Assembly (NCBI RefSeq): GCF_002223055.1
Contig: NZ_NKFL01000004.1
Span: forward strand, 248,001 to 312,000
DNA from: Burkholderia sp. HI2500
GTDB taxonomy: Bacteria; Pseudomonadota; Gammaproteobacteria; Burkholderiales; Burkholderiaceae
Direction of reading: 5' to 3'
Length of the DNA: 64,000 nucleotides
A model generated the notes under the pieces. It had not been told where the DNA came from and did not search any database. It saw only the letters and a program-made list of their open reading frames with translations. The position numbers were made by a program, and so were the translations under genes. Positions 14,947-45,281 of this stretch are shown here, piece by piece. The first letter of the stretch is position 1. Every line of letters begins with the position of its first letter.

Positions 14947-14959
14947 GCCGGAGTCGGGT

Positions 14960-20480: not shown

Positions 20481-20581
20481 GTTGGATATGTGATTGCAAG
20501 GAAGACAGGGTTCGATTTTGACGAATACATCGCAATCACGCAGGGAACATCAATTAATTGAAATGAATAAAGGTGGCTAGC

Positions 20582-21640: not shown

Positions 21641-21642
21641 CA

Positions 21643-22533: not shown

Positions 22534-22551
22534 CACGAAAGAAGAACAAGC

Positions 22552-23436: not shown

Positions 23437-23975
23437 ACGTAACAGTAACTGCCATTCCCGACGTAAAGATCTTCGAACCGAAAGTATTCGGTGATGCGCG
23501 TGGTTTCTTCTTCGAAAGCTTCAACCAGCGCGTATTCGAGGAGGCGATTGGGTATTCCGTCGAGTTTGTGCAGGACAATCATTCAAAATCCGCGAAGAAC
23601 GTCGTTCGAGGCCTGCACTATCAGATCAGTCACGCGCAGGGTAAGCTGGTTCGGGTGGTGGCAGGGGCAGTGTTCGACGTCGCAGTCGATATTCGTCGCG
23701 CATCGCCGACGTTCGGGCAATGGGTCGGCGTGGTGTTGTCTGCGGAGAACAAGCGTCAGTTGTGGATTCCGGAAGGTTTTGCGCACGGCTTTGTTGTCAT
23801 GTCCGACGCAGCAGAGTTCTTGTACAAGACCACAGATTACTGGTATCCGGATGCCGAACGAGCGATCCGCTGGGACGATCCGACGCTCGCGATCGAATGG
23901 CCCATCTCCGGTGAAGCGTTGGTGTCCGGCAAGGACGGGGCGGCGCCTGCTTTCAGCGATGCTGAGTACTTTTGA
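23433..23975 (+). CDS. rfbC: dTDP-4-dehydrorhamnose 3,5-epimerase
   Basis: A 180-residue cupin-fold epimerase acting third in dTDP-rhamnose synthesis. Motifs are [36 protein letters not shown] (catalytic His in RGLHYQ), [28 protein letters not shown] and [13 protein letters not shown]. The GTG start overlaps the rfbA stop, and its own stop overlaps the TTG of the next gene, so the precursor genes and the first large GT2 gene form one coupled unit. Confidence 0.97.
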
Positions 23976-28940: not shown

Positions 28941-29897
28941 ATGGACGTTAAAAAGCGCTTGCTTCCAGGCATTCCAATAATCGAGTCGCCGCTTTTCGAT
29001 ACCGAGATTGTCCAAGCTGAGTTGATGCCTGGTGAGCGTGAGATCGCCGTTGCGCTGAACCGTAACGGCTATGCGGTGATCGATTTCCCGGATCCGGACC
29101 TTGATGCACGGATTGCGCGTATTCGGGAGCGCCTGACCCCGTTGTTTGCTGACACGGGATTGAGCGAGGATGGGGTGTTCCACGAGGCTGGTCGCATTCA
29201 GGACGCGTGGATAAGCGATCCGGATGTGAAAGCGATTGCCACCAACCCTCAGATACGGGATTTACTCGGGCGCCTGTATGGCCGAGTTGCATTTCCATTC
29301 CAGACGCTCAATTTTCGGGTTGGTACGCAACAAAAGCTGCATACCGATGCGGTACACTTCTCGTCGATTCCGCAGCGATTCATGTGCGGGGTGTGGGTCG
29401 CACTGGAAGATATCGCGGCGGAAGCGGGGCCGCTGCAGCTCGTCCCCGGATCGCACAATTGGCCGATGATCGATAATGCAATGGTTGGTCGGCGAGGATT
29501 CGGGGTACCCAGCGAATCGGCGCAATTACCGTATCAGAAAATCTGGGATGCCATGGTGGAAGCGAAGGGGGCGGACATTAAGACATTCCAGGCGCGTAAG
29601 GGACAAGCGCTGATCTGGTGTGCGAATCTGCTGCACGGCGGGAGTCATCAAATCGATCCAGCTATGTCCCGCTGGTCACAGGTGACGCACTATTTCTTCG
29701 ACCATTGTGTCTACTACACACCTGCATTTTCCGACGAATACCTGGGTCGCCTGCAACTCCGTAATCTGGTCAGCATCGTTGACGGTGCACAAAAGCGTAA
29801 TTCCTATCTCGGTGAAGAGGTCGTACCGTCTGCCGCGGGTGCGCGCAAGTCGCGAACCCTGACAGGAAGATTGCGCAAGTGGATGGGTTCCTCTTGA
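28941..29897 (+). CDS. Phytanoyl-CoA dioxygenase (PhyH) family Fe(II)/2-oxoglutarate oxygenase
   Basis: A 318-residue non-heme iron oxygenase. The facial triad is visible: H134 and D136 in LHTDAVHFSS and the distal H232 in LLHGGSHQ. Other family features are PFQTLNFRVGTQQ, CGVWVALEDIAAEAGPLQLVPGSHNWP and ALIWCANLLHGG. AGAAGGA precedes the ATG by 7 bases. Located between capsule glycosyltransferases and wcbO, it probably hydroxylates or oxidises a capsule sugar, lipid or tailoring group. The substrate is unknown; PhyH proteins in polysaccharide loci are rarely characterised. Confidence 0.85.
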   Translation: MDVKKRLLPGIPIIESPLFDTEIVQAELMPGEREIAVALNRNGYAVIDFPDPDLDARIARIRERLTPLFADTGLSEDGVFHEAGRIQDAWISDPDVKAIATNPQIRDLLGRLYGRVAFPFQTLNFRVGTQQKLHTDAVHFSSIPQRFMCGVWVALEDIAAEAGPLQLVPGSHNWPMIDNAMVGRRGFGVPSESAQLPYQKIWDAMVEAKGADIKTFQARKGQALIWCANLLHGGSHQIDPAMSRWSQVTHYFFDHCVYYTPAFSDEYLGRLQLRNLVSIVDGAQKRNSYLGEEVVPSAAGARKSRTLTGRLRKWMGSS

Positions 29898-30405: not shown

Positions 30406-31611
30406 ATGCCGCGCTCGTTTCTCGTGCTACAAGGCACTGCTTCGCTTTTTTTCTATCGACTCGCGCGCGCGCTCCGAGACAGGGGGTTTGCCGTCTATCG
30501 AGTAAATTTCTGCGGTGGCGACTTGCTATATGGTGGGGTAGGGGCCGTTTTGAATTATAGCGACGGGGTTGAGAATTTACCGCAATGGTATGACGATACT
30601 GTGCGGCGAGAAGGAATCACCGACGTCATCATGTTCGGCGACTGCCGCGACATCCATCGCGAGATGCTGGCCGTCTCGACCGCGCACGGCCTGCGTGTCC
30701 ATGTGTTCGAGGAAGGCTACGTTCGACCGCACTGGATCACGTTGGAGAGTCACGGTGTTAACGGGCGCTCGTTGCTGCCGCGCGACCCCGCATGGTATCT
30801 GCAGCAACGCGGCGTAACGCCCCCCGCCAAGCAGTGGGAGGCCACGGGCTACAACCTGTACGAGCGTGCCTTCCACGACATTACGTATCGTTTTGCGAAC
30901 ACGGTATGCTGGCCCCGGTTTCCGAAGTATCGCAGCCACCGACCGAAAAACGGCTTCTTCGAATACTCAGGGCTGGCCGTTCGGATGCTTCTGCAGCGCA
31001 AACATCGACGCGAAGCAGAGATCGTTACGCGCGAGTTGCTCGACAGCGGACGGACTTACTACCTGTTTCCGCTGCAATTGAATTCAGACGCGCAAATCGT
31101 CGTGCATTCGTCTTTCGATGGAATTCGAGCAGCGATCAGCCATGTTGTGGAGTCTTTCGCGCGATACGCGCCGCAAGATGCGTTGTTGGTGATCAAAAAT
31201 CACCCACTGGATACCGGGCTGATCGAGTATCGGAATTTTTCGCTTAAAATTGCGCGTGCCGCAGGCATGGAGAATCGGCTTCGTTTCATCGATGCCGGGC
31301 ATCTTCCGACATTGCTTGAACATGCGCGCGGGGTCGTGGTGATCAACAGCACGGTCGGCTTGTCCGCGCTGCATCACAAGCGGCCGCTGGTTGCACTTGG
31401 CTCGGCTATCTACAATTTCAGCGGCCTGACCTGGCAGGGTGATCTCGATGATTTTTGGCTTGAAGGCGTGCCGCCAGATATGGATCTCTATCACGCGTTC
31501 CTCGACTACGTGATGCATCACACCCAGATCAACGGCGATTTCTACACCCGAACCGGTATTGCGATGGCCATTGCCGGCGCGGTCGCCCGGCTAGAGCGTG
31601 CGGATGGCTAA
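30406..31611 (+). CDS. wcbO: KpsS-like capsule Kdo transferase
   Basis: A 401-residue KpsS-family protein (E. coli KpsS is 389 residues), which adds the first beta-Kdo to the lysophosphatidylglycerol anchor in group 2 capsules. Recognisable segments are FLVLQGTASLFFYRLARAL, VYRVNFCGGD, VIMFGDCRDIHREM, VHVFEEGYVRPHWITLE and VIKNHPLDTG. VVVINSTVGLSALHHKRPL is the nucleotide-binding-like loop. The gene is intact. Its stop overlaps the wcbP start by 8 bases. Together with wcbA it predicts a poly-Kdo-type linker. Confidence 0.93.
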   Translation: MPRSFLVLQGTASLFFYRLARALRDRGFAVYRVNFCGGDLLYGGVGAVLNYSDGVENLPQWYDDTVRREGITDVIMFGDCRDIHREMLAVSTAHGLRVHVFEEGYVRPHWITLESHGVNGRSLLPRDPAWYLQQRGVTPPAKQWEATGYNLYERAFHDITYRFANTVCWPRFPKYRSHRPKNGFFEYSGLAVRMLLQRKHRREAEIVTRELLDSGRTYYLFPLQLNSDAQIVVHSSFDGIRAAISHVVESFARYAPQDALLVIKNHPLDTGLIEYRNFSLKIARAAGMENRLRFIDAGHLPTLLEHARGVVVINSTVGLSALHHKRPLVALGSAIYNFSGLTWQGDLDDFWLEGVPPDMDLYHAFLDYVMHHTQINGDFYTRTGIAMAIAGAVARLERADG

Positions 31612-32395
31612 GGCGTCGGTTCGGCACGTCGTTGTCACCGGCGCGAGCGCGGGTATCGGTCGCGCTCTTGCGCTCGCATACGCGCAGCCTGGTGCCGTAC
31701 TCGGCATCGTTGGCCGGAACGAGGCGCTGCTCGAATCGACTGCCGCGGCTTGCAGGGCGCGCGGTGCGACCGTGATCGTCGGTATCGTCGACGTCCGGGA
31801 GTCCGGCCCGATTCGCGCCTGGCTGCATCGCTTCGACGATCAGTATCCGATCGACCTGCTCATCGCCAACGCCGGCGTCGCGAGTACGCTGTCCTCCGCA
31901 TCTGACTGGGAAGATCTCGACCGTATTGCCAGTGTCGTCGACACGAATTTCTACGGTGCGATGCACACCGTCCTCCCGATTGTCGAACGCATGCGCATCC
32001 GCAAGCATGGCCGCATCGCCGCAGTCAGCTCTCTGGCAGCCCTTCGCGGCATGGCTATCTCGCCCGCATACTGCGCGAGCAAATCGGCGATCAAGGCCTA
32101 CGCCGATTCCGTCCGCCCGCTTCTGAAGCGCGATGGTGTCGGTGTCTCGGTTATTCTTCCCGGCTTCGTCAAAACGTCGATGAGCGACGTGTTTCCGGGT
32201 GACAAGCCTTTCATGTGGACTGCTGATCAGGCTGCCGCATATATTCGCAGAAAGCTCGATATCGGACGTGCGGAAATCGCGTTCCCCAGCCTGCTTGCAT
32301 TCGGCATGCGCATCCTGGCCGTGCTGCCCATCACGCTGGCCGATGCGATCCTCGACAAGCTTTCGTATCTGCCCGGCAAGGAAGACGTAAATTGA
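31604..32395 (+). CDS. wcbP: Short-chain dehydrogenase/reductase
   Basis: A 263-residue classical SDR with TGASAGIGRALA as the cofactor loop, LLIANAGVAS, catalytic Ser in AAVSSLAALRG, YCASKSAIKAYADS as YxxxK, and LPGFVKTSMSD. The C-terminus (LPITLADAILDKLSYLPG) is hydrophobic, similar to SDRs that act on lipids, including 3-ketosphinganine reductases. The ATG at 31604 overlaps the wcbO stop, and the wcbP stop overlaps the TTG of wcbQ. A role reducing a keto-lipid made by the downstream PKS and alpha-oxoamine synthase is attractive but inferred; a sugar substrate is possible. Confidence 0.87.
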   Translation: MAKASVRHVVVTGASAGIGRALALAYAQPGAVLGIVGRNEALLESTAAACRARGATVIVGIVDVRESGPIRAWLHRFDDQYPIDLLIANAGVASTLSSASDWEDLDRIASVVDTNFYGAMHTVLPIVERMRIRKHGRIAAVSSLAALRGMAISPAYCASKSAIKAYADSVRPLLKRDGVGVSVILPGFVKTSMSDVFPGDKPFMWTADQAAAYIRRKLDIGRAEIAFPSLLAFGMRILAVLPITLADAILDKLSYLPGKEDVN

Positions 32396-33921
32396 CGGGC
32401 GCGATCTGGCTCGCGTTCGCCGTTGCGGCCGGCGCGTCGTTTCTGCCGGACCGGATCGCAGTTCCGCGCGCGTCATTGCGGCGTCGCGCCGATGCGCTGC
32501 TTTTGCATGTGCTTTCGGTCGTGTTCCTTGCGTCGCTGATATTGCTCGTCACTGCGCGTCCAATCTTCTCGTCGTCCGTCGCGGTTGCGCTGGTCGGGCT
32601 CGTTGCGGTCGTGAGCAACGCAAAATATGAATCCCTGCGCGAACCGTTCGTTTTTACCGACCTCAGCCTCTTCAGCCAGTTGTTCTCGCATCCGCGGCTC
32701 TATCTGCCGTTCCTGAGCGCCGGCAAGATAGTTGCGATCGGCGTAGGGATCGTGTTGGTCGTCGCCGGCTATCTCGCCGAGGCGCCCGTCGCGCCGCGTC
32801 CGGTGCTCGCGCTGGCGGTCGTGGTTGCGTTCACATTCTTACTGGCGCGATACATTGCAGCTCGCCTGCCATTGGTGCTCGACGCAGAGGAAGATCAGCG
32901 CCGTCACGGTTTTTTCGCAGTATTCATTGCATACTTGCTGAACGGCATGCGGCCCGCGACGTTCGAAGCGTTCCGGCGCGTGGTCGAAGCGGGACCGTTC
33001 GCGACCGGCACGCCGGCGCTGCGCCCTGACGTCATCGTGATCCAGAGTGAATCGCTGTTCGATGTACGACGTATTTCACCAGCGATCACCCCCACCGTGC
33101 TTTCTCATTTCGATCGGGCAAGGAACGAGGCTGTCTGTTACGGCGAGCTTTCGGTGCCGGCGTGGGGCGCAAACACAATGCGCACCGAATTCGCGATGCT
33201 GACCGGCCTGGCGTATGAGCAGCTGGGCTACGCGCGCTTTTATCCCTATGCTTTTGTGCGTCGCGCGTGCGCATCGATTGCACGGTGGTTCGGACAGGCT
33301 GGTTACAACACGGTTGCGATTCATCCGTACTACGCTGATTTCTTCGGGCGTAACCGCGTATTCCCGTTACTCGGATTCGACAAGTTTCTCGATATAGAAC
33401 ACTTCGCCGATGCGCCGCGAGCGGGCCCGTATATCTCCGACGCCGCTGTGCTGGACGCCGTGCTTGCCGAGCTGGAAGCCGCACGCGACAAGCCGCAATT
33501 CGTGTTCGCGATGACGATGGAAAATCACGGCCCGCTGCACCTGGAGCAGGTTTTGCCTGGGGAATCGTCTTCAAGGCATACTCTGGGCGAGGGCACTTCC
33601 TGGCGCGACCTGACTGCATACCTTCGCCATATTGAAAACGCCGACGCTATGATCGGGCGTTTGCTCGATCATTTGCGCGCCAGCGATCGTGAAACAGTCG
33701 TTTGCTTTTACGGCGACCATGTTCCCGCGTTACCTCACGTATTCGAAAAGCTGGGCGTTTCTCCACAAACCAGCGACTACTTCATTTGGCGAAATTACGG
33801 CACAGATGTTCCCGAATGCCGGAATTTGGCGGCCGAAGAGCTTGGGGCGGCGCTGCTGCATGTGGTACAAGATGACGGAAATCGCGCGGAACAGCCGCAC
33901 GCATCCGAGAAAGCGACATAA
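32392..33921 (+). CDS. wcbQ: Membrane sulfatase / LTA-synthase-like (alkaline phosphatase superfamily) protein
   Basis: A 509-residue membrane-anchored protein. Four to five N-terminal hydrophobic segments (about residues 1-160) precede a periplasmic alkaline-phosphatase-superfamily domain. That domain has PDVIVIQSESLFD as the first metal motif, GANTMRTEF around residues 259-267 with the likely catalytic Thr, FAMTMENHGPLH and VVCFYGDHVPAL as the C-terminal metal site. This layout is that of LtaS/OpgB-type phosphoglycerol or phosphoethanolamine transferases as well as sulfatases. It may add or remove an anionic group on capsule in the periplasm. Start is TTG, coupled to wcbP. 'Sulfatase' is the family name only. 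Confidence 0.85.
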   Translation: MTGAIWLAFAVAAGASFLPDRIAVPRASLRRRADALLLHVLSVVFLASLILLVTARPIFSSSVAVALVGLVAVVSNAKYESLREPFVFTDLSLFSQLFSHPRLYLPFLSAGKIVAIGVGIVLVVAGYLAEAPVAPRPVLALAVVVAFTFLLARYIAARLPLVLDAEEDQRRHGFFAVFIAYLLNGMRPATFEAFRRVVEAGPFATGTPALRPDVIVIQSESLFDVRRISPAITPTVLSHFDRARNEAVCYGELSVPAWGANTMRTEFAMLTGLAYEQLGYARFYPYAFVRRACASIARWFGQAGYNTVAIHPYYADFFGRNRVFPLLGFDKFLDIEHFADAPRAGPYISDAAVLDAVLAELEAARDKPQFVFAMTMENHGPLHLEQVLPGESSSRHTLGEGTSWRDLTAYLRHIENADAMIGRLLDHLRASDRETVVCFYGDHVPALPHVFEKLGVSPQTSDYFIWRNYGTDVPECRNLAAEELGAALLHVVQDDGNRAEQPHASEKAT

Positions 33922-33924
33922 AAG

Positions 33925-36900
33925 ATGAACAGTAAGATTGCAATAATTGGGGTGGCTTGTCGGTTTCCCGGGAGCGCTAACAATCTCGGCGACTTCTGGC
34001 AACTGCTGCGCGACGAACGCGACGCAGTCACCGAAATCCCCGCCGACCGCTTCGGCACCGATTTCTACCAGCACCCGTCCAAGCGCGAGCCGGGCAAGAG
34101 CTACACGTTCGCCGCCGGCGTCGTCGACAACATCGCCGGCTTCGATGCCGCGTTCTTCGGCATTTCCCCGCGCGAAGCGGCCCAGATGGATCCCCAGCAG
34201 CGCCTGCTGCTCGAACTCGCATGGGAAGCGTTCGAGGACGCGGGCGTGCGCCCGGCCGACATGCGCGGCAGCAACTGCGGCGTCTTCGTCGGCGCCGCCA
34301 GCATGGATTACGGCAACCGCAACATGGACGATCTCAACGTGATCGATCCATATTCGGCGACCGGCAACACCCTGAGCATCGCGTCGAACCGCGTGTCCTA
34401 CCTGTTCGACCTGCGCGGCCCGAGCATGTCCGTCGACACGGCCTGCTCGTCGTCGCTCGTCGCGCTCCACCAGGCCGTCAAGGCGCTGCAGTCCGGCGAA
34501 GCCGACGTGGCGCTCGCGGGCGGCGTCAACCTGCTGCTGCACCCGTTCGGCTTCGTCAGCTTCTCCAAGGCGTCGATGCTGTCGCCGCGCGGCCGTTGCC
34601 GCACGTTCGATGCAACCGGCGACGGCTATGTCCGCTCGGAAGGCGGCGCGTTCGTGCTGCTCAAGCCGCTCGATCGCGCGCTCGCCGACGGCGACACGAT
34701 TCACGCGGTGATCGCCGGCTCCGGCGTGAATTCGGTCGGCCACTCGCCGGGCGGCATCAGCGTGCCGGGCGCGGCCGCGCAGGCGTCGCTGCTGCGCAGC
34801 GTGTACGCGCGCGCGGGCATCGATCCGCAGTCGCTGGCGTATCTCGAAGCGCACGGCACCGGCACGGCGGTCGGCGATCCGATCGAAGCGCGTGCGCTGA
34901 TCGACGTCGTGTCGGGCGAGCGCCCGGCGGACCGTCCGCTGCTCATCGGTTCGGTCAAGACCAACATCGGCCATCTCGAGACCGCATCCGGCATGGCCGG
35001 GCTGCTGAAGGCCGTGCTGTGCCTGAAGCATCGCGCGGTACCGCGCTCGCTGCATTTCGTCACGCCCAATCCTGGGATCGATTTCGACGGCGGGCGTCTG
35101 CGCGTCGTCGATCGCTACATGCCGCTCGACGCGGGCGACGCGCCGCTGACGGTCGGCGTCAACTCGTTCGGCTTCGGCGGAACGAACGCACACGTCGTGC
35201 TGACGGAGGCGCCGGCTGCAAACGAGGCGTCGGCGGCCGCGCGTGAGCCCGAGCCGACACAAGCGAAACTGTCTCCGCTCGTCCTGACCGCGCGCAGCGC
35301 GAATGCGCTCGGCGCGCTTGCGGCCCGCTATCTGACGATGCTCGACAACGGCGGCGACTGGCAGGCACTGGCCGCCGCGGCCGCACGTCGTCGCCAGTGG
35401 CTGGAACATCGAGCAATCGTTGCGCCGGCCGACGTGGCCGAAGGCCGCGTGGCGCTTGCGGCACTGGCCCAGCCGGCAGCGGAAGGCCTGCCGGCCTGCG
35501 TGGCAACCGGCCAGGCCCCGGCCGACGCGGTCCGCACCGCGCTCGTCCTCTCGGGCAACGGCTGCCAGTGGGTCGGGATGGGCAACGAACTCTATGCGGA
35601 GAACGCCGTGTTCCGCGCGGCGCTCGACGACGTCGACGCGCTGTGGTGCGCCGATGGCAGCCCGTCGCTCGTCGACGTGATGCGCGGCGGCCCGGGCGCG
35701 GAATGGCTGGCCGGCGCGGGCGCCGAATGGCTCGCCGCGACGGAGAACGCGCAGCCGCTGCTGTTCGCGATCCAGGTCGGCATGATTCGCGTGATCGACG
35801 CGCGCGGGATGCGTTACGACGCGGCGATCGGCCATAGCGTCGGCGAGATTGCCGCGGCGTGGGTGACGGGCGCGCTGTCGCTCGCCGACGCGGTTCGCGT
35901 GATCAAGATCCGCAGCCGCGCGCAGGCGATGACGCGCGGCAGCGGCCGGATGGCGGCGGTCGGCATCGGCGACGCGGCGGCGCGCGAACTGATCGCGCGC
36001 CACGGGCTGGCGCGGCGCGTCGAGATCGCGGGCATCAACAGCCCCGACGCGGTGACGCTCGCGGGCGAGCTGCAGGGCCTGCAGGCATTGGAGGCCGCGT
36101 TGCGCGGCAGCGGCAAGTTCTTCCAGATGCTGGATCTCGACTACGCGTTCCACAGCAGCCACATGGACCGCATCGAGCCGGTCGTGCTGGCCGAGCTGGC
36201 GAGCCTGCGGCCGCAGCCGGGCAACGGCACGTTCGTGTCGACCGTGACCGGTGGCGCGCTGGCCGGCACCGAGCTCGATGCTCGTTACTGGTGGCGCAAC
36301 ATTCGCGAGCCGGTGCGCTTCGGCGACGGCATCGCGCATCTGATCGAGCAGGGCGTCCGGCTGTTCATCGAGGTCTCGCCGCATTCGATCCTGCGCACGT
36401 ACGTGAAGCAGGCATTCGCGGCCGCCGGCGCGACCGGCGTGGCGCTGCCGACGCTCAAGCGCGATCACGGCAGCGCGGCGACGCTGCGGCAAGCGATTCT
36501 CGCGGCGATCGCGCACGGTGCGAGCGTCGATCCCGACCGCTTCGCGCCGGGCGAAGCGCGTGCTGCATTGCCGTCCTATCCGTGGCAGCGCGACCATTTC
36601 TGGCTGACGCCGACCGTCGAAGGCTACGGCCTCGTCAATCGTCGCCGCGAGCATCCGCTGCTCGGCTATCGCCTGCACGAGCACGCATTCGCGTGGGAAA
36701 ACCAGCTCGATCCGGCGAAGCTGCCGATGCTGGCCGATCACGTCGTCGACGGCGGCGTGGCGTTCCCGGGGGCCGGGTACGTGGAGATGGCGCTCGCCGC
36801 GGCACGCACCTTCTTTGATACGCCGGATGCGGCGCTCGAAAACGTCGAGATCCGCACGCCGGTGGTATTCCAGCCGCAGCAGGCGAAGCTGTTCCGGCTC

Positions 36901-39900
36901 GTGATCGAGCCGCGTACCGCGACCTTCACGATCGAGACGCGCGACCGGATGTCCGATGGTGCATGGACGCTGAACGTGACGGGGCGGATGCTGGAAAGCG
37001 GCAACACGCTCGGCGATGCGAGCGTCGTGCCGTCCGACGCGCTCGATCGTCTGCTCGCGTTGCCCGCGGCCGACGGCGACACGCTGTATGCAAACACGGC
37101 GGCCATCGGCCTCAGCTACGGGCCGGCATTCCGCTGGGTCCGCACCGTGCGGGTCGCTGCGGATGACGGCGCGGCGCTGGCCGACGTTGCGGTGCCGGCA
37201 GCATGCGGCGACGCGCGGGCATTGTCTGCCTATCTGCTGCATCCGGCGCTGATGGACAGCGGGTTTCATCCGCTGTTCGCACTGCTTGCCGCGCACGCGC
37301 GCGAAGGCGAGCATCCGGCTTACGTGCCGGTGCAGATCGGCCGGGTCGACTATCTGCGCGGCGACACGGTCGAGCGGGTACTGGTGCGGATCGACCGCCA
37401 CAGCCCGCATTCGATCGTCGCGCATTTCGAATTCCTCGACGCGCGCGGCGCGATCGTCGCGCGGCTCGGCGCATGCCGGTTCCGGCGTGTCGACCTCGTC
37501 GGCCGCCGTCAGAACCTGCCCGCGCGCTTCGTCTACCGCCTTGAAGAAGTGCCGCTGCCGGGTGACGTCAATGCAGCCGGTTTGCCGGCCCCCGACGCGT
37601 TGCTCGCGCTTGCTGCCGCACGGCTCGATGCAGCCGGGCACGACGGCCGCCGGACGCAGCATCTGACCGAAATCCTGCCGCTGCTCGACGTGCTGGCGAG
37701 CCTCTACGCGCTCCGCGCGTTCGATGCGCTCGGCGCGTTCGGCGGGGCATGGCAGCCGGCGGCCGGGCGTGAGGCATTGGCCGCACGTCTTGCCGATATG
37801 CTGGTCGAAGACGGTCTCGCTCATCGCGATGGCGCGCTGCTCGTGCGCGACGACGCGGCGTGCGCGGCGTTGCCGCCGCTCGACGAGCTGTGGCGCGGGC
37901 TGCTGGCCGAATCGCCGGGTCACGTGGCCGAGCTGACGCTGCTCGCGCATTGCGGCGCGGCGTTGCCGGACGTGCTGAATGGCGCGAAGGACGGCGCCCG
38001 CCTGCTGTCGCCGACCGGCCACAGCCTGGTCGAACAACTCCTTGCCGCATCGCCGACGTGGCAGCACGTGCACGCGTTGCTGACCGCAAGCGTCGAGCAG
38101 GCAGTCGGCGCATGGCAACCGGCACGCCGGTTGCGTGTGCTCGAGCTGGGCGCGACGGACGGTGACGTGCTGCAGACGCTCGGCATGCATCTCGCGGCCG
38201 CGCGCTGCGATCACACAATTGCGGCGACTGCCGGTCAACTCGCCGGGTTCGACGCCGATGCGGAAGCGGCGGTGCGCACGGTTGCGTTGCAGTCGGGCGA
38301 GCGGTTGTCGCTGGCGGCCGACGAAGCCGGCCCCTACGACCTGATCGTCGCGAACCGCGCGTTGAGCGGCCGGCACGATGTGGCCGACGCGCTGAATGCA
38401 ATGCGGTCATGGCTGGCGCCGGGCGGATTGCTGCTGCTGGCCGAGTCGCGTCGCGGCCGTTTCTCCGACATCGTATTCGGCGCGCAGGCTTCGTCGACGG
38501 AAGCCGATGCGCCCGTGCCGCTGGCGCCGGCGGATCTCGATGCGGCACTCGAACGCGCGGGCTTCGTCGACGTCGTGCGGCACGTCGAGCAATCGCTCGA
38601 TCTGGACGGCACGCCGACGTTCGTCATCGCGCGCAACCCCGCGAGCGCCGTTGTCGCGCAACGCGGCGAGGAACCGAGCGATCTCGATACGCTTGCACGC
38701 AGCGAGCAATGGCTCGTCGTGCACGCACCGGATGCCGCCGGCAGTTTCGGCGGGCGGCTAGCCGATGCACTGGCGCGCGCGGGCTATCCGGCCGATATCG
38801 TCGACGTCACGCACGCGGCCGATGCGATCGCGTCGTTGCCGGCCGGGCGGCCGGCGCATGTCGTGTTCTGCGCGCCGGAAACGCCGCTCGCCGAATCGGC
38901 GACGGGCGATGGCCTGATGGCCGCGCAGCGTAACGGCGTGATCGCTCTTGCGGAACTCGTTCGCACGCTCGGTGCGCAGCCGAACGCGGCCACGCGGCTG
39001 ACCGTCGTCACGCGTGGCGGCGCGCCGTTCGCCGGGACCGCGAATGCGCATCCGGAACAGGCCACGCTGTGGGGTCTCGGTCGCGTGCTGGCGAACGAGC
39101 ATCCCGAACTCGCGTGCCGCCTGATCGACGTCGATCGAGCGGCGGACCGGATCCCTGACGCGCTGATTCGCGAGCTGACCGGCGCGGCGGTCGAGGAAGA
39201 AGTCGTCCTGGGTGCACACGGGCGGCAGGTGCCGCGTATGTTGACGGCCGCGCAGGCCGCGGCCCGCAACGATGGCGCGATCGCGCGTGCGGCCGTGCTC
39301 GCGTTCGACGCGCCGGGTTCGTTGCGCAATCTCGAATGGTTCGCGTTGCCGGAAAGCCCGCTGGGCGATGACGAGGTGGAGATCGAGCCCGTTGCCACCG
39401 GCCTCAATTTCCGCGACGTGATGTATGCGATGGGGCTCTTGTCCGATGAAGCAGTCGAGACCGGCTTCGCGGGCGCGACGATCGGGATGGAACTGTCCGG
39501 CCGCGTCGTGCGGGTGGGCAACGCCGTGACGGCATTCGCGCCGGGCGATGCGATGCTCGGCTTCGCGCCGGCTTCGTTCGCGACGCGCGTCAGGACGCGC
39601 GCGCAAGCGATCGCACTGAAACCCGAACGGCTGTCGTTCGAGGAAGCGGCGACCGTGCCGACCACGTTCTTCACCGCGTACTACGCACTCGTCGAACTCG
39701 CGCGTCTGCGCCGCGGCGAGCGCATGCTCGTGCACGGCGGCGCGGGTGGAGTCGGGATCGCCGCGATCCAGCTCGCGCGCCACTTCGGCGCGGAAGTGTT
39801 CGCGACGGCCGGCAGCGACGAGAAGCGCGAGTTCGTGCGTCTGCTCGGCGCGGACCACGTGCTCGATTCGCGCAGCCTCGCGTTCGCGGACGAGATTCGC

Positions 39901-41562
39901 GCGCTGACGGGCGGCCAGGGCATCGACATCGTGCTGAATTCGCTCGCCGGTGAAGCAATGGTGCGCAGCATCGATACGCTGCGGCCGTTCGGTCGTTTCC
40001 TCGAGCTCGGCAAGCGCGATTTCTACGAAAACAGCCATATCGGGCTGCGGCCGTTCCGCAACAACATCAGCTATTTCGGCATCGACGCCGACCAGCTGAT
40101 GGGGGCGCTCCCGGAGCTGACCGCGCGCCTGTTCGGCGAAGTGATGGCGCTGTTCGAGGCAGGCGTGCTGCATCCGCTGCCGTATCGCGCGTTTCCGGCC
40201 GAACGGGCGGAAGATGCGTTCCGCTACATGCAGCAGGCGCGCCAGATCGGCAAGGTGCTCGTGACCTATCCGTCCGGCACGCCGGCCCCGACGCGCGGCG
40301 TCACGCGCGCGGGTTCGCTCGCGCTCGATCCGCTTGGCACGTACCTGGTGGTTGGCGGCACGGGCGGGCTAGGTTTCGCGAGCGCGCGCTGGATGGTCGA
40401 GCGCGGCGCACGCCGGCTGACGCTGGCGAGCCGTTCCGGCGAGCTCGCTGCGGCCGCACGCGAGGAAGTCGAGCGCTGGCGCACGACGCTCGGCGTCACG
40501 GTCGATGCCGTGTCGTGCGATGTGACCGACGCCGCGGCGGTCGACGCGATGATCGATGCGATCGTCCGGCGCGGCAGTCCGCTCAAGGGCGTGCTGCATT
40601 CCGCGATGTCGATCGATGACGGCCTCGTGCGCAATCTCGACGATGCGCGCATGGCCGCGGTGCTCGCACCGAAGGTGGCCGGCGCGTGGAACCTGCATCG
40701 CGCGACGCGCGCGTTGTCGCTCGACCTGTTCGTGGTCTATTCGTCGGCGACGACCTATCTCGGCAATCCGGGGCAGTCGAACTACGTCGCGGCCAACACC
40801 TTCCTCGAGGCGCTCGTCGAACATCGTCGCGCGGCGGGATTGCCGGGCACGTTCATGGCCTGGGGGCCGCTCGAGGACGTCGGCTTCCTCGCGCGCCACG
40901 CGGATACGCGCGAGGCGCTGCAGTCGCGGATCGGCGGCGCGTCGATCACGTCCGACGAGGCGATGGTCGCGCTTGAACGCACGCTGGTCGCGGGCGCGGC
41001 CGGCGAGGCCGTGGTCCGGCTCGACTGGCACGCGGTAGCGCGCGGGATGCCGGCCGCGAAGGCGCGCCGGTATTCGCTGCTGCAATCGCACGCGAGCGGC
41101 GGCGATGCGCGCGATGGCGGCACGCAGTTGCGGGAAGAAGTGCTGGCGTTGCCGCGCGACGAAGCGATCGCGCTGGTGGCGCGGACGCTGCAGGCGCAGA
41201 TCGCGCGGATTTTGCACATGACGCCGGACCGCATCGCGCTCGACAAGTCAGTGCTCGACATGGGCATGGATTCGCTGATGGGGATGGAACTCGGCCTCGC
41301 GGTCGAGGAAGCGTTCGAGGTCAAGCTGTCGGTGATGGCGATTGCCGAAGGCGCGTCGGTGACGACGCTGGCCGGACGTATCGTCGATTCGATCGGCGCG
41401 TCGACCGATGCGGATGCCGGTTCCGCGACGGATGCCGCGCAGGAGGCCGTCGCGGCGCTCGCGGCGAAGCATGCGATCGACGGCGAAGCGCGCGCGATGC
41501 TCGATGCGCGGCAGGCGCCCGTGGCGGGCCAGGCGTCGCCGACGCTGGAGGTCGCGCGATGA
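33925..41562 (+). CDS. wcbR: Highly reducing type I polyketide synthase of the capsule locus
   Basis: A 2545-residue multidomain synthase. KS (1-420) has C174 in DTACSSS with H310 and H350. AT (about 537-850) has S638 in GHSVGE and YAFH, which predict malonyl-CoA. DH (about 905-1190) has H939 in DHVVDG and D1111 in HPALMDSGFH. A methyltransferase-like region (about 1370-1560) has a poor motif I (LELGATDGD). ER (about 1790-2115) has HGGAGGVGIAA. KR (about 2135-2320) has VGGTGGLG, an SS pair and Y2287. The ACP has S2450 in MGMDSLMG. No thioesterase is present, so the chain needs another release route, probably WcbT. The stop overlaps wcbS. Confidence 0.95.
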   Translation: MNSKIAIIGVACRFPGSANNLGDFWQLLRDERDAVTEIPADRFGTDFYQHPSKREPGKSYTFAAGVVDNIAGFDAAFFGISPREAAQMDPQQRLLLELAWEAFEDAGVRPADMRGSNCGVFVGAASMDYGNRNMDDLNVIDPYSATGNTLSIASNRVSYLFDLRGPSMSVDTACSSSLVALHQAVKALQSGEADVALAGGVNLLLHPFGFVSFSKASMLSPRGRCRTFDATGDGYVRSEGGAFVLLKPLDRALADGDTIHAVIAGSGVNSVGHSPGGISVPGAAAQASLLRSVYARAGIDPQSLAYLEAHGTGTAVGDPIEARALIDVVSGERPADRPLLIGSVKTNIGHLETASGMAGLLKAVLCLKHRAVPRSLHFVTPNPGIDFDGGRLRVVDRYMPLDAGDAPLTVGVNSFGFGGTNAHVVLTEAPAANEASAAAREPEPTQAKLSPLVLTARSANALGALAARYLTMLDNGGDWQALAAAAARRRQWLEHRAIVAPADVAEGRVALAALAQPAAEGLPACVATGQAPADAVRTALVLSGNGCQWVGMGNELYAENAVFRAALDDVDALWCADGSPSLVDVMRGGPGAEWLAGAGAEWLAATENAQPLLFAIQVGMIRVIDARGMRYDAAIGHSVGEIAAAWVTGALSLADAVRVIKIRSRAQAMTRGSGRMAAVGIGDAAARELIARHGLARRVEIAGINSPDAVTLAGELQGLQALEAALRGSGKFFQMLDLDYAFHSSHMDRIEPVVLAELASLRPQPGNGTFVSTVTGGALAGTELDARYWWRNIREPVRFGDGIAHLIEQGVRLFIEVSPHSILRTYVKQAFAAAGATGVALPTLKRDHGSAATLRQAILAAIAHGASVDPDRFAPGEARAALPSYPWQRDHFWLTPTVEGYGLVNRRREHPLLGYRLHEHAFAWENQLDPAKLPMLADHVVDGGVAFPGAGYVEMALAAARTFFDTPDAALENVEIRTPVVFQPQQAKLFRLVIEPRTATFTIETRDRMSDGAWTLNVTGRMLESGNTLGDASVVPSDALDRLLALPAADGDTLYANTAAIGLSYGPAFRWVRTVRVAADDGAALADVAVPAACGDARALSAYLLHPALMDSGFHPLFALLAAHAREGEHPAYVPVQIGRVDYLRGDTVERVLVRIDRHSPHSIVAHFEFLDARGAIVARLGACRFRRVDLVGRRQNLPARFVYRLEEVPLPGDVNAAGLPAPDALLALAAARLDAAGHDGRRTQHLTEILPLLDVLASLYALRAFDALGAFGGAWQPAAGREALAARLADMLVEDGLAHRDGALLVRDDAACAALPPLDELWRGLLAESPGHVAELTLLAHCGAALPDVLNGAKDGARLLSPTGHSLVEQLLAASPTWQHVHALLTASVEQAVGAWQPARRLRVLELGATDGDVLQTLGMHLAAARCDHTIAATAGQLAGFDADAEAAVRTVALQSGERLSLAADEAGPYDLIVANRALSGRHDVADALNAMRSWLAPGGLLLLAESRRGRFSDIVFGAQASSTEADAPVPLAPADLDAALERAGFVDVVRHVEQSLDLDGTPTFVIARNPASAVVAQRGEEPSDLDTLARSEQWLVVHAPDAAGSFGGRLADALARAGYPADIVDVTHAADAIASLPAGRPAHVVFCAPETPLAESATGDGLMAAQRNGVIALAELVRTLGAQPNAATRLTVVTRGGAPFAGTANAHPEQATLWGLGRVLANEHPELACRLIDVDRAADRIPDALIRELTGAAVEEEVVLGAHGRQVPRMLTAAQAAARNDGAIARAAVLAFDAPGSLRNLEWFALPESPLGDDEVEIEPVATGLNFRDVMYAMGLLSDEAVETGFAGATIGMELSGRVVRVGNAVTAFAPGDAMLGFAPASFATRVRTRAQAIALKPERLSFEEAATVPTTFFTAYYALVELARLRRGERMLVHGGAGGVGIAAIQLARHFGAEVFATAGSDEKREFVRLLGADHVLDSRSLAFADEIRALTGGQGIDIVLNSLAGEAMVRSIDTLRPFGRFLELGKRDFYENSHIGLRPFRNNISYFGIDADQLMGALPELTARLFGEVMALFEAGVLHPLPYRAFPAERAEDAFRYMQQARQIGKVLVTYPSGTPAPTRGVTRAGSLALDPLGTYLVVGGTGGLGFASARWMVERGARRLTLASRSGELAAAAREEVERWRTTLGVTVDAVSCDVTDAAAVDAMIDAIVRRGSPLKGVLHSAMSIDDGLVRNLDDARMAAVLAPKVAGAWNLHRATRALSLDLFVVYSSATTYLGNPGQSNYVAANTFLEALVEHRRAAGLPGTFMAWGPLEDVGFLARHADTREALQSRIGGASITSDEAMVALERTLVAGAAGEAVVRLDWHAVARGMPAAKARRYSLLQSHASGGDARDGGTQLREEVLALPRDEAIALVARTLQAQIARILHMTPDRIALDKSVLDMGMDSLMGMELGLAVEEAFEVKLSVMAIAEGASVTTLAGRIVDSIGASTDADAGSATDAAQEAVAALAAKHAIDGEARAMLDARQAPVAGQASPTLEVAR

Positions 41563-42476
41563 GCGCGCCGTCCGGGTGGGCGACGCGTCAGGGCACGCTG
41601 GCACGGCCGCTGGCGATCGACGGTCACGGGCTGCACACGGGGCGCCGGGTGGGTGTGCGGATCCTGCCCGGGCGTCCGGAAGAGGGCGTGACGGGCATCG
41701 CGTTCCGTCGCGTCGCGCAGGGGCGCACGCTCGCGACGCTGCCGGTCGATCCCGCGCTGCGCCGCGCGCAGCCGCTGTGCACGATGCTGCGCAACGCCGA
41801 CGGCGTCGGCGTTCGCACGATCGAGCATCTGCTCGCGTCGCTGCTTGCATGCGAGATCGATCACGCGATCGTCGAGATCGATGCGGAAGAAGTGCCGATT
41901 CTCGATGGCAGCGCCGCGCCGTGGGTGGACGCCATCCGCGCGTGCGGCCGTGTCGCGCTCGATGCGCCGAAACGCTTCATCCGCGTGCTGCGGCCCGTCG
42001 TCGTCACGGATGGCGACGGTGACCAGCGGCGCGAAATGCGGATCGAACCGGCGCCGCGTTACGAACTGAGCGTGCGCAACGACCTGCGCGGCTTCGGCGA
42101 CATGCACTGGGACGGGGCGCTGACACCGGCCGCGTTCGCGACCGAAATTGCGCCGTCGCGCTCGTATGGCCGCGTGAAGTGGGCCGTGCCCGCGATCGTC
42201 GCCGGTTATTTGCGCGGCGTGCCGATCCTGCGCGGCGCGCGGCCGTCGTGCACGGCGTCCATCGTCGGCAATCGCGTGCTGGGCGGGATGCGGCTGCCGG
42301 AGGAGTTCGTCCGGCATCGCGTGCTCGACCTGGTCGGCGATCTCGCGCTGGCCGGCGCGCCGCTGCTGGCGCGCGTGAGCGCATTGCGACCGAGCCACGA
42401 GATGAATTTCCGGCTGGTCGATGCGCTGCTGGCCCAACCCGACGCATGGCAGTGGGCCGAGTTTCCCGACGCGTGA
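41559..42476 (+). CDS. wcbS: LpxC-like zinc-dependent N-deacetylase paralogue
   Basis: A 305-residue homologue of UDP-3-O-acyl-GlcNAc deacetylase, normally the committed step of lipid A synthesis. The catalytic set is intact: E89-H90 in IEHLLASL, H253 and D257 in RHRVLDLVGDL (zinc ligands) and H280 in SHEMNFRLVDALL. The H253-D257 and H253-H280 spacings (4 and 27) equal those of E. coli LpxC H238/D242/H265. LDGSAAPWVDAI and RSYG are also family segments. It is coupled to wcbR by an ATGA overlap and lies just before wcbT, so it probably acts on a capsule-specific amino-lipid or sugar. It is unlikely to be the housekeeping lpxC, which usually sits in the dcw cluster. Confidence 0.88.
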   Translation: MSAPSGWATRQGTLARPLAIDGHGLHTGRRVGVRILPGRPEEGVTGIAFRRVAQGRTLATLPVDPALRRAQPLCTMLRNADGVGVRTIEHLLASLLACEIDHAIVEIDAEEVPILDGSAAPWVDAIRACGRVALDAPKRFIRVLRPVVVTDGDGDQRREMRIEPAPRYELSVRNDLRGFGDMHWDGALTPAAFATEIAPSRSYGRVKWAVPAIVAGYLRGVPILRGARPSCTASIVGNRVLGGMRLPEEFVRHRVLDLVGDLALAGAPLLARVSALRPSHEMNFRLVDALLAQPDAWQWAEFPDA

Positions 42477-42540
42477 CACCACGCTTTTTCATGATGCGCG
42501 GCGTAACATAGCGCCTTTTCGAGATATAGCGAAGGAAGCA

Positions 42541-43869
42541 ATGGCACTGGGAGAGCATCTTCGCCAGCAACTGGCTGCGAAAGCGCTGAAGCGACAACTG
42601 GAGCGCGCAACGGATGCGGCTGCGGCACCGGGCGTGCCGGGCACGCTGGCCGCGCAGACCGCATCGGCGCGCAGCCGCTTCGAATCGATGCCGCAGTATC
42701 AGCAGGTCCGGATCATGCGCGAGATGGGCGAGAAGCTGCGCGTCGACTCGCCGTTTTTCCGCGTGCATGAAGGCGTGGCCGGTGCGACGACGCAGATCGG
42801 CGGCCGCGAGTACCTGAACTTCGCGAACTACAACTACCTCGGCCTGGCCGGCGATCCGGCCGTGTCGTCGCGCGCGAAAGCCGCGATCGACCGTTACGGC
42901 ACGTCGGCCTCCGCGAGCCGGATGGTCGCGGGCGAGCGTCCGGTGCAGCGCGATCTCGAGCGCGCGCTGGCCGCGTTCTACGAGACCGACGACTGTGTCG
43001 CGTTCGTAAGCGGCCATGCAACGAACGTGACCGTGATCGGTGCGCTGTTCGGTCCCGGCGATCTGGTCGTCCACGATTCGCTCGCGCACAACAGCATCGT
43101 GCAGGGCGCGCAGCTGAGCGGCGCGAAGCGGCTGAGCTTCGCGCACAACGACTGGCAGGCGCTCGACGAACTGCTGTCGCGCGTGCGCCGCGAATACCGG
43201 CACGTGCTGATCGCGATCGAAGGGCTGTACAGCATGGACGGCGATTTTCCCGACCTGCAGCGTTTCGTCGACGTGAAGACGCGCCACGGTGCATTCCTGC
43301 TGGTCGACGAGGCGCATTCGCTCGGTGTGCTCGGCGCGACCGGCAAGGGCATCCGCGAGCACTGCGGTGTCGCGCCCGACCAGGTCGACATGTGGATGGG
43401 CACGATGAGCAAGACGCTGGCCGGCTGCGGCGGTTTCATCGCCGGCTGCCAGCCGCTGGTCGACATGCTGCGGCACCTGGCGCCGGGCTTCCTGTACAGC
43501 GTCGGGCTCGCGCCGACGCTCGCCGAAGCGTCGCTGGCCGCGCTCGAGCGCCTGCAGGCCGAGCCGGAGCGCGTCGCGCAACTGCAGGCGCGCGGACGGC
43601 AGTTCCTGACCGAGGCGCGCGCCGCCGGGCTGAACACGGGCACGAGCGCCGGGTTCGCGGTCGTGCCGGTGATCACGGGGAGCTCGCTGAAGGCCGCGCA
43701 ATGGGCCAATGCGATGTTCGACGAAGGGATCAACGTGCAGCCGATCTTCTATCCGGCCGTCGAGGAAAAGGCCGCGCGCCTGCGCTTCTTCATCTGCTCG
43801 ACGCATGAGCCGGAGCAGATCAGCCGGACGGTCGCCGTGTTGTCGCGTCTCGCGGGGCGCAGCGCGTGA
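42541..43869 (+). CDS. wcbT: Alpha-oxoamine synthase (PLP-dependent acyltransferase)
   Basis: A 442-residue fold-type I PLP enzyme of the alpha-oxoamine synthase family (serine palmitoyltransferase, KBL, BioF). Landmarks are NFANYNYLGLAGDP, YGTSASASRMVAGERPVQRDLE, ILVDEAHSLGVLG-type segment (VDEAHSLGVLGATGKG) and MSKTLAGCGGF with the predicted PLP lysine K291. A roughly 60-residue N-terminal extension precedes the core. These enzymes condense an amino acid with an acyl thioester and release CO2, and can offload acyl-ACP chains. Next to a PKS without thioesterase, that role is likely. ATG at 42541 follows AAGGAA. Its stop overlaps the GNAT start. Confidence 0.9.
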   Translation: MALGEHLRQQLAAKALKRQLERATDAAAAPGVPGTLAAQTASARSRFESMPQYQQVRIMREMGEKLRVDSPFFRVHEGVAGATTQIGGREYLNFANYNYLGLAGDPAVSSRAKAAIDRYGTSASASRMVAGERPVQRDLERALAAFYETDDCVAFVSGHATNVTVIGALFGPGDLVVHDSLAHNSIVQGAQLSGAKRLSFAHNDWQALDELLSRVRREYRHVLIAIEGLYSMDGDFPDLQRFVDVKTRHGAFLLVDEAHSLGVLGATGKGIREHCGVAPDQVDMWMGTMSKTLAGCGGFIAGCQPLVDMLRHLAPGFLYSVGLAPTLAEASLAALERLQAEPERVAQLQARGRQFLTEARAAGLNTGTSAGFAVVPVITGSSLKAAQWANAMFDEGINVQPIFYPAVEEKAARLRFFICSTHEPEQISRTVAVLSRLAGRSA

Positions 43870-44540
43870 CGCTGGCCGGTGCGTTCGCGCACGCGGTGCC
43901 GCGCGCCGGTGAGCGCGTGCGGTTTCGCGCGGCGGATGCGGATGATGCGGCTGCGTGCGGGCCGCTCGTGTTTGCGTCCGGCGTGGCCGAATTCGGGTTC
44001 TTTCTCGGCGAAAGCGATGCACGCGGCGTTGCGTTTTTGCAGCAGGCGTTTCGGTCGCGTTACGGGCGCTTCTCGTGGCGCCGGCATCGCGTCGCAGTCG
44101 CCGACGACGGCACCGTGCTCGCCGTGATGGCGATCCACGACGGACAGCAGACGATGTTCGACGATTTGCATGTCGTGTGGGCACTCTCGCGCTTTTTCGG
44201 CGTGCGCCGCACCATCGGCCAGTTGCTGCGCGGGCTGATCCTCGAAACGGAAATTCCGGCGCCGAAGCGTTCGCAGATCCTCGTCGCGCATTGCGCGACC
44301 GAGGAGCGTCAGCGCGGCACGGGGATCTTCAGCGCACTGTTTCGCGATGCGCTGGACACCGGCGCATTGCCCGCCAACGGCAGCCGCGAGGTCGTGCTCG
44401 ACGTGCTGACGCGCAACGTGCGGGCCCGCGCGTTATATGAACGGCTCGGGTTCACCGCGCTGCCGCGGCCGCGTGCACGGTCGCGTCGGCTGCCCGCCGA
44501 ACTCGATTCGATCCGGATGCGGTTGTCGCGCGATGCATGA
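43866..44540 (+). CDS. GNAT-family N-acyltransferase
   Basis: A 224-residue protein with GNAT features: a central beta-strand pair, CATEERQRGTGIFSALF as the acyl-CoA binding motif A (R/QxxGxG/A variant) and VLTRNVRARALYERLGF as motif B. The GTG start overlaps the wcbT stop, so it is the last gene of the coupled wcbOPQRST unit. It might N-acylate the amine created by WcbT, completing a ceramide-like lipid, or act on an amino sugar. Substrate is inference. Confidence 0.8.
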   Translation: MTLAGAFAHAVPRAGERVRFRAADADDAAACGPLVFASGVAEFGFFLGESDARGVAFLQQAFRSRYGRFSWRRHRVAVADDGTVLAVMAIHDGQQTMFDDLHVVWALSRFFGVRRTIGQLLRGLILETEIPAPKRSQILVAHCATEERQRGTGIFSALFRDALDTGALPANGSREVVLDVLTRNVRARALYERLGFTALPRPRARSRRLPAELDSIRMRLSRDA

Positions 44541-44684: not shown

Positions 44685-45281
44685 TTAGCCGTTCAGCGGG
44701 AGCTTTCTGATGATTGCGGCCACGCACTCCAGGGGACCTGTCTCGGCTGTCCTGACGTGTACGTCGGGGGACAATGGCTTCTCGTAGCTCGACTCTATCC
44801 CCGTGAACTGCCGAATCGCTCCCTGCCTTGCCAATACATACAGGCCCTTCGGATCACGAGCCTCTGCCACTTCCAATGACACGTCGACGAAGACCTCGAT
44901 AAACGTGCCCGCAGTAAAGCGTTCACGGGCTTTAGCGCGCGCCTCGTGAAATGGCGAGATCAGTGCAGCAATGACGATGAGTCCGGCGTCCATCATCAGC
45001 CGAGCGACTTCGGCTGTGCGTCGGATATTTTCGTGTCGATCAGCATCGCTGAATCCGAGATCTTGGTTCAGCCCTTCGCGCAGGACGTCGCCGTCGAGCA
45101 AATACGTACGAAGACCACGGGCGTCAAGTTGTTCCTTCAACAGATTCGCCAGCGTGGATTTGCCTGCGCCGGAGACGCCAGTCAACCACACCACGAAGGC
45201 TTGATTCTGTTGCACACGAGGAAGTATGGATTGACTGCCAGATGATATAGCGGGCAGGTCATTATTATAATCTTGAATCAT
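44685..45281 (-). CDS. cysC: Adenylyl-sulfate kinase
   Basis: Phosphorylates APS to PAPS, the sulfate donor for sulfotransferases and sulfate reduction. The 198-residue protein has a Walker A loop GVSGAGKST at residues 35-43, LLDGDVLREGLNQDLGFSDADRHENIRR (APS-binding), LISPFHEAR, EVFVDVSLEVAEARDPKGLY and FTGIESSYEKP. It is a stand-alone kinase, convergent with the capsule operon. beta-Proteobacteria usually reduce APS directly, so a kinase beside a capsule locus hints at a need for PAPS in sulfation; a sulfotransferase-like gene lies at 55697. Confidence 0.95.
   Translation of the reverse strand: MIQDYNNDLPAISSGSQSILPRVQQNQAFVVWLTGVSGAGKSTLANLLKEQLDARGLRTYLLDGDVLREGLNQDLGFSDADRHENIRRTAEVARLMMDAGLIVIAALISPFHEARAKARERFTAGTFIEVFVDVSLEVAEARDPKGLYVLARQGAIRQFTGIESSYEKPLSPDVHVRTAETGPLECVAAIIRKLPLNG

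Follow-up and report, generated by a model that had tools for sequence, protein, structure and literature searches.

A capsule locus of Burkholderia sp. HI2500 encodes a candidate pathway for a phosphoglycerol-sphingoid capsule anchor

We analysed a 64,000-nucleotide stretch (the window) of contig NZ_NKFL01000004.1 from the 8.26-Mb genome of Burkholderia sp. HI2500, and in it a run of lipid-type genes, wcbP-wcbQ-wcbR-wcbS-wcbT-GNAT, that follows a kpsS-type gene. Pfam and NCBIfam searches of the window proteins identified an ATP-binding cassette (ABC)-dependent capsule locus, in which a KpsC-like gene is followed by export and ABC genes, rml genes, large glycosyltransferase genes, a PhyH gene and then the run from KpsS to GNAT (Table 1). 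The seven genes of this run lie on the forward strand and are densely packed, with successive spacings of -14, -4, +3, -4, -56 and -4 bases. An earlier note on this DNA had read a reducing polyketide synthase (PKS), an alpha-oxoamine synthase (AOS), a short-chain dehydrogenase/reductase (SDR), an LpxC-like deacetylase and a GNAT protein as a pathway to a sphingoid-like lipid. Its coordinates, domain order, lack of a thioesterase and motifs were confirmed; its gene list omitted WcbQ, KpsC and PhyH, and its wcbP began at an in-frame ATG at 31604. The gene set is not a chance neighbourhood, because strong family matches (E-values of 1.9e-188 for WcbS and 2.1e-46 for the AOS, that of GNAT being weak at 3.5e-6) go together with recurrence of the set around relatives in many genera.

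Table 1. Features of the capsule locus, with positions in the window.
Feature	Position	Strand	Basis
KpsS-type beta-Kdo transferase (wcbO-like), AOS-linked clade	30406-31611	+	PF05159 347.7 bits; trees
WcbP, SDR, proposed 3-ketosphinganine reductase	31598-32395	+	PF00106 131.9 bits
WcbQ, putative membrane phosphoglycerol transferase of LtaS/GacH type	32392-33921	+	PF00884; GacH E 1.7e-21; fold search; catalytic residues
WcbR, reducing type I PKS, 2545 aa, KS-AT-DH-MT-like-ER-KR-ACP, without thioesterase	33925-41562	+	Pfam, motifs
WcbS, LpxC-fold zinc deacetylase (predicted)	41559-42476	+	NF009666; zinc/catalytic positions aligned to LpxC structures
WcbT, AOS, RkpG/Pseudomonas-cluster clade	42421-43869	+	NCBIfam scores, alignments, tree
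GNAT-fold N-acetyltransferase	43866-44540	+	PF00583, weak; model pLDDT 87.9, GNAT folds in PDB
KpsC-like Kdo transferase	8239-10278	-	PF05159, 2 stretches; 38.8% to a KpsC of Pseudomonas plasmid L009
Capsule export genes: polysaccharide export/SLBB, Wzz-type, ABC-2 permease, ABC ATPase	11869-15613	+	Pfam
rml genes	20573-23975		
PhyH-type dioxygenase	28941-29897	+	PF05721

The domains of WcbR carry the motifs DTACSSS, HGTGT and NIGHLE (KS), GHSVGE and YAFH (AT), HVVDGGVAFP and DSGFHP (DH), HGGAGGVG (ER), GGTGGLG and YSSATTYLGNPGQSNYVAAN (KR) and DMGMDSL (ACP), which we presume to have their customary meaning. The MT motif reads LELGATDG and, judged by its letters, looks degenerate. WcbR would work iteratively. 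A single-module reducing PKS without a thioesterase beside an AOS is the arrangement of the SgaAB type, with WcbS sitting between the two genes in the window.

WcbT scored below every NCBIfam cut-off shown for it. Its best-scoring model was bioF (335.6 bits, cut-off 426.45); the KBL models gave 305.1 (460) and 259.3 (493) bits, and those for serine palmitoyltransferase (SPT) 285.6 (500), 280.6 (640) and 227.3 (670) bits. In a tree built from 66 of the 128 AOS rows, proteins of the WcbT type formed one clade of 44 rows (support 100) apart from canonical SPT and KBL/BioF, including Pseudomonas, Sinorhizobium, Halomonas, Bordetella and others. In this clade WcbT stands together with the AOS of Pseudomonas clusters of the same layout, SgaB itself not being among the rows. 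By our count it agrees with the SPT majority at about 8 of the 32 columns diagnostic for SPT; canonical SPT was rejected by score and tree. That WcbT is an ordinary BioF or KBL amid a chance neighbourhood, as the rank of the bioF model might suggest, is extremely improbable and was rejected: its scores stay under the cut-offs, a separate BioF above cut-off is encoded elsewhere in the genome, WcbT has its own well-supported clade, and the neighbourhood recurs over many genera. WcbT is 99% identical to the AOS of Burkholderia lata R-18110, and a start at 42541 agrees better with the starts of relatives than one at 42421; with that start, the 56-base overlap with wcbS becomes a gap.

In Pseudomonas fluorescens MYb115, the PKS-AOS pair PfSgaAB makes C24-C28 sphinganines and SgaB strongly prefers L-serine (Peters et al. 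2025, PMC12134224). The +154 Da compounds of this strain are, in the view of its authors, most likely phosphoglycerol sphingolipids, and 6,101 homologous Sga clusters were counted, dominantly in Burkholderia (PMC12134224). To judge by their locus tags, sgaB (RS19800) and the SDR (RS19775) are far enough apart for four genes to lie between them; the main text does not mention 'capsul', 'rkp' or 'deacetylase' (PMC12134224). WcbP is 39.7% identical to the SDR of the Pseudomonas clusters. The pair of the MYb115 type and the grouping of WcbT with the Pseudomonas-cluster AOS support the proposal of the earlier note that the PKS makes a chain, the AOS releases it with an amino acid and the SDR reduces the product. 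For relatives, then, the sphingoid idea is largely in print already (PMC12134224).

WcbQ is, we think, the key gene of the module. Pfam labels it a sulfatase, whereas annotated relatives are named lipoteichoic acid (LTA) synthase family protein. In a PDB sequence search GacH came first, followed by LtaP and LtaS. In the predicted structure (predicted local distance difference test, pLDDT, 92.3), about five membrane helices at the N-terminus precede a catalytic domain at the C-terminus, a simple scan giving four hydrophobic segments. In the fold search, ranked by E-value, GacH led, then LtaP and LtaS, with sulfatases further down, and the GacH-sn-glycerol-1-phosphate complex took ranks 2 and 3. 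Aligned with GacH, WcbQ has the Thr nucleophile, the metal ligands and the His/Arg pair in place. All 59 sequences of at least 280 bits, the window's included, carry E220, T262, H379, D442, H443, H311 and R320 without variation; of 15 weaker WcbQ-like rows, 13 to 15 retain the first five residues, and 9 retain H311, as 9 do R320. The roles of these residues in metal binding, as nucleophile and in glycerol-phosphate binding are presumed from LtaS. Sulfatases have a Cys or Ser at the nucleophile position that becomes formylglycine; with Thr there in 59/59 sequences, the sulfatase assignment was rejected. WcbQ scored 24.4 bits against the NCBIfam LtaS model (cut-off 970) and 19.5 against phosphoglycerol transferase I (cut-off 572), and is not an LtaS orthologue, being far under the LtaS cut-off. 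From sequence and model, WcbQ looks like a phosphoglycerol transferase and not a sulfatase. The +154 Da lipids of MYb115 would require an enzyme of this kind in the cluster, and WcbQ would provide the phosphoglycerol head required by KpsS.

KpsS adds the first Kdo to the lipid; a change in that acceptor would be expected to show in the protein, because the two meet. KpsS of the E. coli type uses (lyso-)phosphatidylglycerol (PG) and acts at the cytoplasmic face (PMC7694667). The window KpsS scored 283.8 bits against NF050054, below the cut-off of 600. In a tree of 76 KpsS proteins, one branch parted 46 from AOS-bearing genomes or loci from 30 from AOS-lacking genomes, with an ultrafast bootstrap of 99 and an SH-like approximate likelihood ratio test (SH-aLRT) value of 95; the branch was present in 98% of 200 bootstrap trees, and 0 of 500 shuffles gave a split as low. 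Systematically drawn genomes alone (22 AOS-bearing, 30 AOS-lacking) gave the same split (99/95; 100% of 200 bootstrap trees). The tree leaves out AOS-bearing G279, G283, G304 and G351 and AOS-lacking G183 and G208, counts G067 as AOS-lacking despite a 406-bit AOS on another contig, and has no separate row for locus L187, whose genome (G167) is present as L045. An E. coli KpsS fell on the AOS-lacking side and the window KpsS on the other (branch support 99/94), so that the latter does not group with the lyso-PG type. Species history alone does not account for the split, since members of families f1 and f29 are found on either side.

Two positions of KpsS follow the same division. Position 158 (window 30877-30879) is acidic in 46/46 AOS-linked proteins and in 0/30 of the others, and position 187 is Tyr in 45/46 and 0/30, respectively. 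It is possible, as a lead only, that the acidic residue reads a free amine. By way of the KpsS split, the suggestion of an anchor in place of lyso-PG, also made in the earlier note, gains indirect support.

The distribution of the module was surveyed in two systematic samples, of 249 genomes from the phylum and 150 from the family of the window. In the phylum sample, WcbQ of at least 299 bits occurred in 7 genomes, and WcbT-type AOS of at least 600 bits in 8, namely those 7 and G167. PF05159 matches were found in 34 genomes, 28 of them with a full-length KpsS by our reading of the rows; these include all 8 AOS genomes, and the remaining 20 have neither AOS nor WcbQ at these levels (G067 has its 406-bit AOS on another contig). 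In the family sample, WcbQ was present in 21/150 genomes, every one with a WcbT-type AOS (Fisher p 1e-23, ignoring kinship of the genomes), and by our reckoning the two genes lie 9.3-11.2 kb apart on the same contig in 20 of the 21. AOS of at least 740 bits was found in 23 family genomes and weaker AOS (437-448 bits) in two more; WcbS was found in 19, all inside the 21 WcbQ genomes, and KpsS in 31, 18 of them also carrying WcbQ. Eighty named loci fetched by AOS contained WcbQ in 41 cases, KpsS in 24, both in 16, KpsC in 12, SDR in 34, GNAT in 10 and an LpxC-like gene in 9, counted within the stretches taken, many of them short. On a Pseudomonas plasmid (L009), PhyH, KpsC, GNAT and an LTA synthase gene lie between AOS and SDR, and L054-L056 have similar sets.

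These data bear on what WcbQ acts upon. If the sphingoid is made but WcbQ places glycerol-phosphate (or phosphoethanolamine) on the capsule glycan, with the lipid head made otherwise, WcbQ would act like GacH, its nearest structure, which acts on a streptococcal polysaccharide, and the probably periplasmic location of the catalytic domain would suit such a target. We hold this to be rather improbable: in the family sample WcbQ tracks AOS (21/21) more closely than KpsS (18/21), WcbQ is found in clusters with differing glycan genes, and PG-sphinganines probably occur in MYb115.

Another alternative keeps the phosphoglycerol-sphingoid but makes it a free membrane or carrier lipid for export or for seating in the outer membrane, the capsule itself standing on lyso-PG. 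The rkp-1 region is said to produce a lipid carrier that serves in secretion, MYb115 contains free sphinganines as well as PG-sphinganines, and PKS-AOS-WcbQ modules persist in genomes without KpsS. Three KpsS-less family loci retain SDR-WcbQ-PKS-LpxC-AOS, and the same module stands with ABC export genes on p2 of Caballeronia insecticola (L013), where another initiating sugar transferase is likely. We consider this alternative unlikely, although the strongest of those weighed; it leaves unexplained why KpsS splits by the presence of AOS. Modules without KpsS do imply that another first sugar must be possible.

WcbS scored 624.9 bits against NF009666 (cut-off 423) and 170 against TIGR00325, the LpxC model (cut-off 187.25), and does not qualify as LpxC by score; its zinc-site and catalytic residues, with roles presumed from LpxC, are in place. 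The retained zinc site would suit an anchor of the lipid-A or Vi kind, in which an acylated N-acetylhexosamine (HexNAc) is deacetylated by WcbS and receives the WcbR chain, and the Vi capsule does have a diacyl-HexNAc anchor (PMC12220298). This is very improbable, as such an anchor gives AOS and WcbQ no explanation, and WcbS is missing in 2/21 family WcbQ genomes and could not be detected in the Pseudomonas clusters with the PKS-AOS-WcbQ-KpsS set (L009, L054-L056). Given the same absences, the earlier suggestion that WcbS and GNAT edit N-acylation is not supported. Of the 261 fold matches of GNAT at E up to 0.001, the 50 listed resemble ordinary N-acetyltransferases, and an acyl-ACP N-acyltransferase found no support. 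An acetyl-off/acetyl-on pair is conceivable, because the GNAT fold is that of an ordinary N-acetyltransferase and WcbS keeps the LpxC site.

On balance we lean towards the reading that the module makes a phosphoglycerol-sphingoid, a mimic of lyso-PG, as a dedicated capsule acceptor for its own KpsS clade. WcbR, with the domains described, would build a long saturated acyl chain on its ACP; WcbT would condense this chain with an amino acid, probably L-serine as tested in print for a relative, to give 3-ketosphinganine and release it from the PKS; and WcbP would reduce the ketone. WcbQ, whose family and active site are recognisable, would then transfer sn-glycerol-phosphate from phosphatidylglycerol to the 1-OH. 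With a single chain, a polar backbone and a phosphoglycerol head, the product would mimic lyso-PG, and KpsS of the module's own clade, followed by KpsC, would build the 3-deoxy-D-manno-oct-2-ulosonic acid (Kdo) linker on its glycerol before the ABC exporter carries the glycolipid out. WcbS and GNAT may, at a guess, remove and add acetyl on the amine or on the first sugar.

Several points weigh against this reading. The lipid and anchor chemistry is, for this organism, a prediction from genes; the anchor of S. meliloti 1021 has been called a phospholipid; and the LTA-synthase-like gene of MYb115 is deduced from the spacing of its locus tags and from what the Pseudomonas clusters L009 and L054-L056 contain. 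In the fold search, two phosphoethanolamine transferases, full-length MCR-1 (rank 10) and EptA (rank 19), have higher query-normalised TM-scores than GacH, because the GacH structure was solved without its membrane part; phosphoethanolamine transfer is the less likely activity, and no protein so named occurs among the 15 PDB sequence matches of WcbQ at E up to 1. The catalytic domain of LtaS-type proteins presumably lies outside the cell, so that of WcbQ is probably periplasmic while KpsS is cytoplasmic, which would oblige the lipid to return across the membrane. Part of the KpsS split could stem from linked genes being transferred together; against such a cassette speak G095, with KpsS and WcbQ on contig C2 and PKS-AOS on contig C1, and G167, with KpsS and AOS on different contigs.

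The distribution has exceptions too. G167 has a strong AOS without WcbQ, and AOS of 370-562 bits occurs in seven phylum-sample genomes that lack a WcbQ above 235 bits, six of them without a KpsS match. In G012, neither of two PKS-AOS pairs has any of these capsule genes close by, so such pairs also occur outside capsule loci. In the family sample, KpsS (E 1e-40) was not found in 3 of the 21 WcbQ genomes, and WcbQ was not found in AOS genomes G263 and G394 or in G267 and G307, the two with weaker AOS; a Pfam search among seven open reading frames (ORFs) of G263 gave no replacement for it. WcbQ was not seen in 39 of the 80 named loci, many of these stretches being short, nor KpsS in 38 kb of C. 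insecticola p2. Two WcbQ relatives on Roseomonas plasmids (L198, L199; 290-305 bits) have a metabolic neighbourhood without AOS or KpsS.

More distant WcbQ-like genes (74-219 bits) occurred in 18 phylum-sample genomes, and none of the 13 whose surroundings were covered has KpsS near. One of 205 bits (L046; G041 C102) adjoins a PKS and an AOS, with no capsule gene in reach; three of 168-173 bits (L027, L028 and L029, in G051, G055 and G071) have two stand-alone KS-like genes and an SDR next to them and may belong to a different lipid pathway that uses an LTA-type transferase. On a plasmid of Acidisoma sp. PAMC 29798 (L200, 3419-13401), AOS, SDR, a sterol-desaturase-family protein, KpsS, KpsC and a WcbQ-like gene occur together, but 25 kb contain no PKS; this may be a version that dispenses with the PKS and draws on ordinary fatty acids. 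In the window, PhyH might hydroxylate the lipid or a sugar; it shares just 24.7% identity over 93 aa with PhyH of the Pseudomonas clusters, where PhyH also adjoins KpsC (L009, L054, L056). Directly after GNAT, an adenylyl-sulfate kinase gene (44685-45281) lies on the opposite strand, near a gene that Pfam labels a sulfatase; the two are probably unrelated.

More broadly, we find it evenly balanced whether KpsS/KpsC capsules are of two kinds: one on lyso-PG and a second, widespread one with a PKS-derived phosphoglycerol-sphingoid anchor, a head added by an LTA-synthase relative and a separate KpsS clade, in which case many bacterial PKS sphingolipids would be capsule anchors or their precursors and not secondary metabolites. 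Many capsules, in genera including Burkholderia, Pseudomonas, Bordetella, Achromobacter and Sinorhizobium, would then carry an anchor other than Kdo-PG, WcbQ/RkpI would gain a function, the phosphoglycerol head of the MYb115 sphingolipids would be explained, and the nature of the rkp-1 lipid carrier would be accounted for. Within the literature searched, the joining of PKS sphingolipids with KpsS capsules, the assignment of WcbQ and the KpsS split are new; judged by titles and abstract openings, the open-licence PMC literature gave no link of a capsule with a PKS sphingolipid.

Compared with known systems, WcbQ resembles GacH, LtaP and LtaS in its catalytic Thr, metal ligands, His/Arg pair and fold; those proteins act on glycan or teichoic acid, whereas the acceptor proposed for WcbQ is a sphingoid. 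Fum1, Fum8 and Fum13 follow, by description, the same logic of reducing PKS, AOS release and ketoreductase; the fumonisin genes are fungal and, to our knowledge, involve no capsule and no phosphoglycerol transferase. FUM13 is named in the MYb115 study (PMC12134224). The E. coli capsule on (lyso-)PG shares KpsS, KpsC and the ABC exporter with the window but has no AOS, PKS or WcbQ in 16 kb around kpsS (L197). The Vi antigen, although without KpsS/KpsC, is already an instance of a capsule that has its own lipid, and a 2025 review takes it as the exception to a conserved Kdo-PG terminus in ABC-dependent capsules (PMC12220298). Porphyromonas gingivalis lacking its SPT has less capsule, and the general idea of a sphingolipid capsule anchor was put forward there as speculation, in contrast to lyso-PG elsewhere; unlike the window, it has a single ordinary SPT (PG1780) and dihydroceramides, the available text mentioning no PKS or WcbQ (PMC5126122). 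PfSgaAB(C) of MYb115 shares an iterative reducing PKS, an adjacent AOS and an SDR with the window, and PG-sphinganines are its probable product, but it is described as making a secondary metabolite that acts on the worm host (PMC12134224); relative to the Pseudomonas clusters seen, the window has WcbS in addition and a different gene order.

A further close counterpart is rkp-1 of Sinorhizobium, described as making a specific lipid carrier for the capsule (PMC4881576). Like the window, rkp-1 (rkpA-GHIJ) has PKS, AOS, SDR, an LTA-synthase-like ORF (WcbQ/RkpI) and KpsS in one run within a capsule locus. The S. meliloti locus L011 differs in having no WcbS or GNAT that we saw, and its AOS is 51% identical; in strain Ak57 (L011, 14246-15784) the rkpI-like ORF has no coding sequence in the record table, and its N-terminus looks unlike those of relatives. 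The wcbP-Q-R-S-T genes of B. pseudomallei capsule I, which we liken by names rather than sequence, presumably have the same gene names and order as the window. The wcb and rkp genes have themselves been equated as counterparts (PMC3908369).

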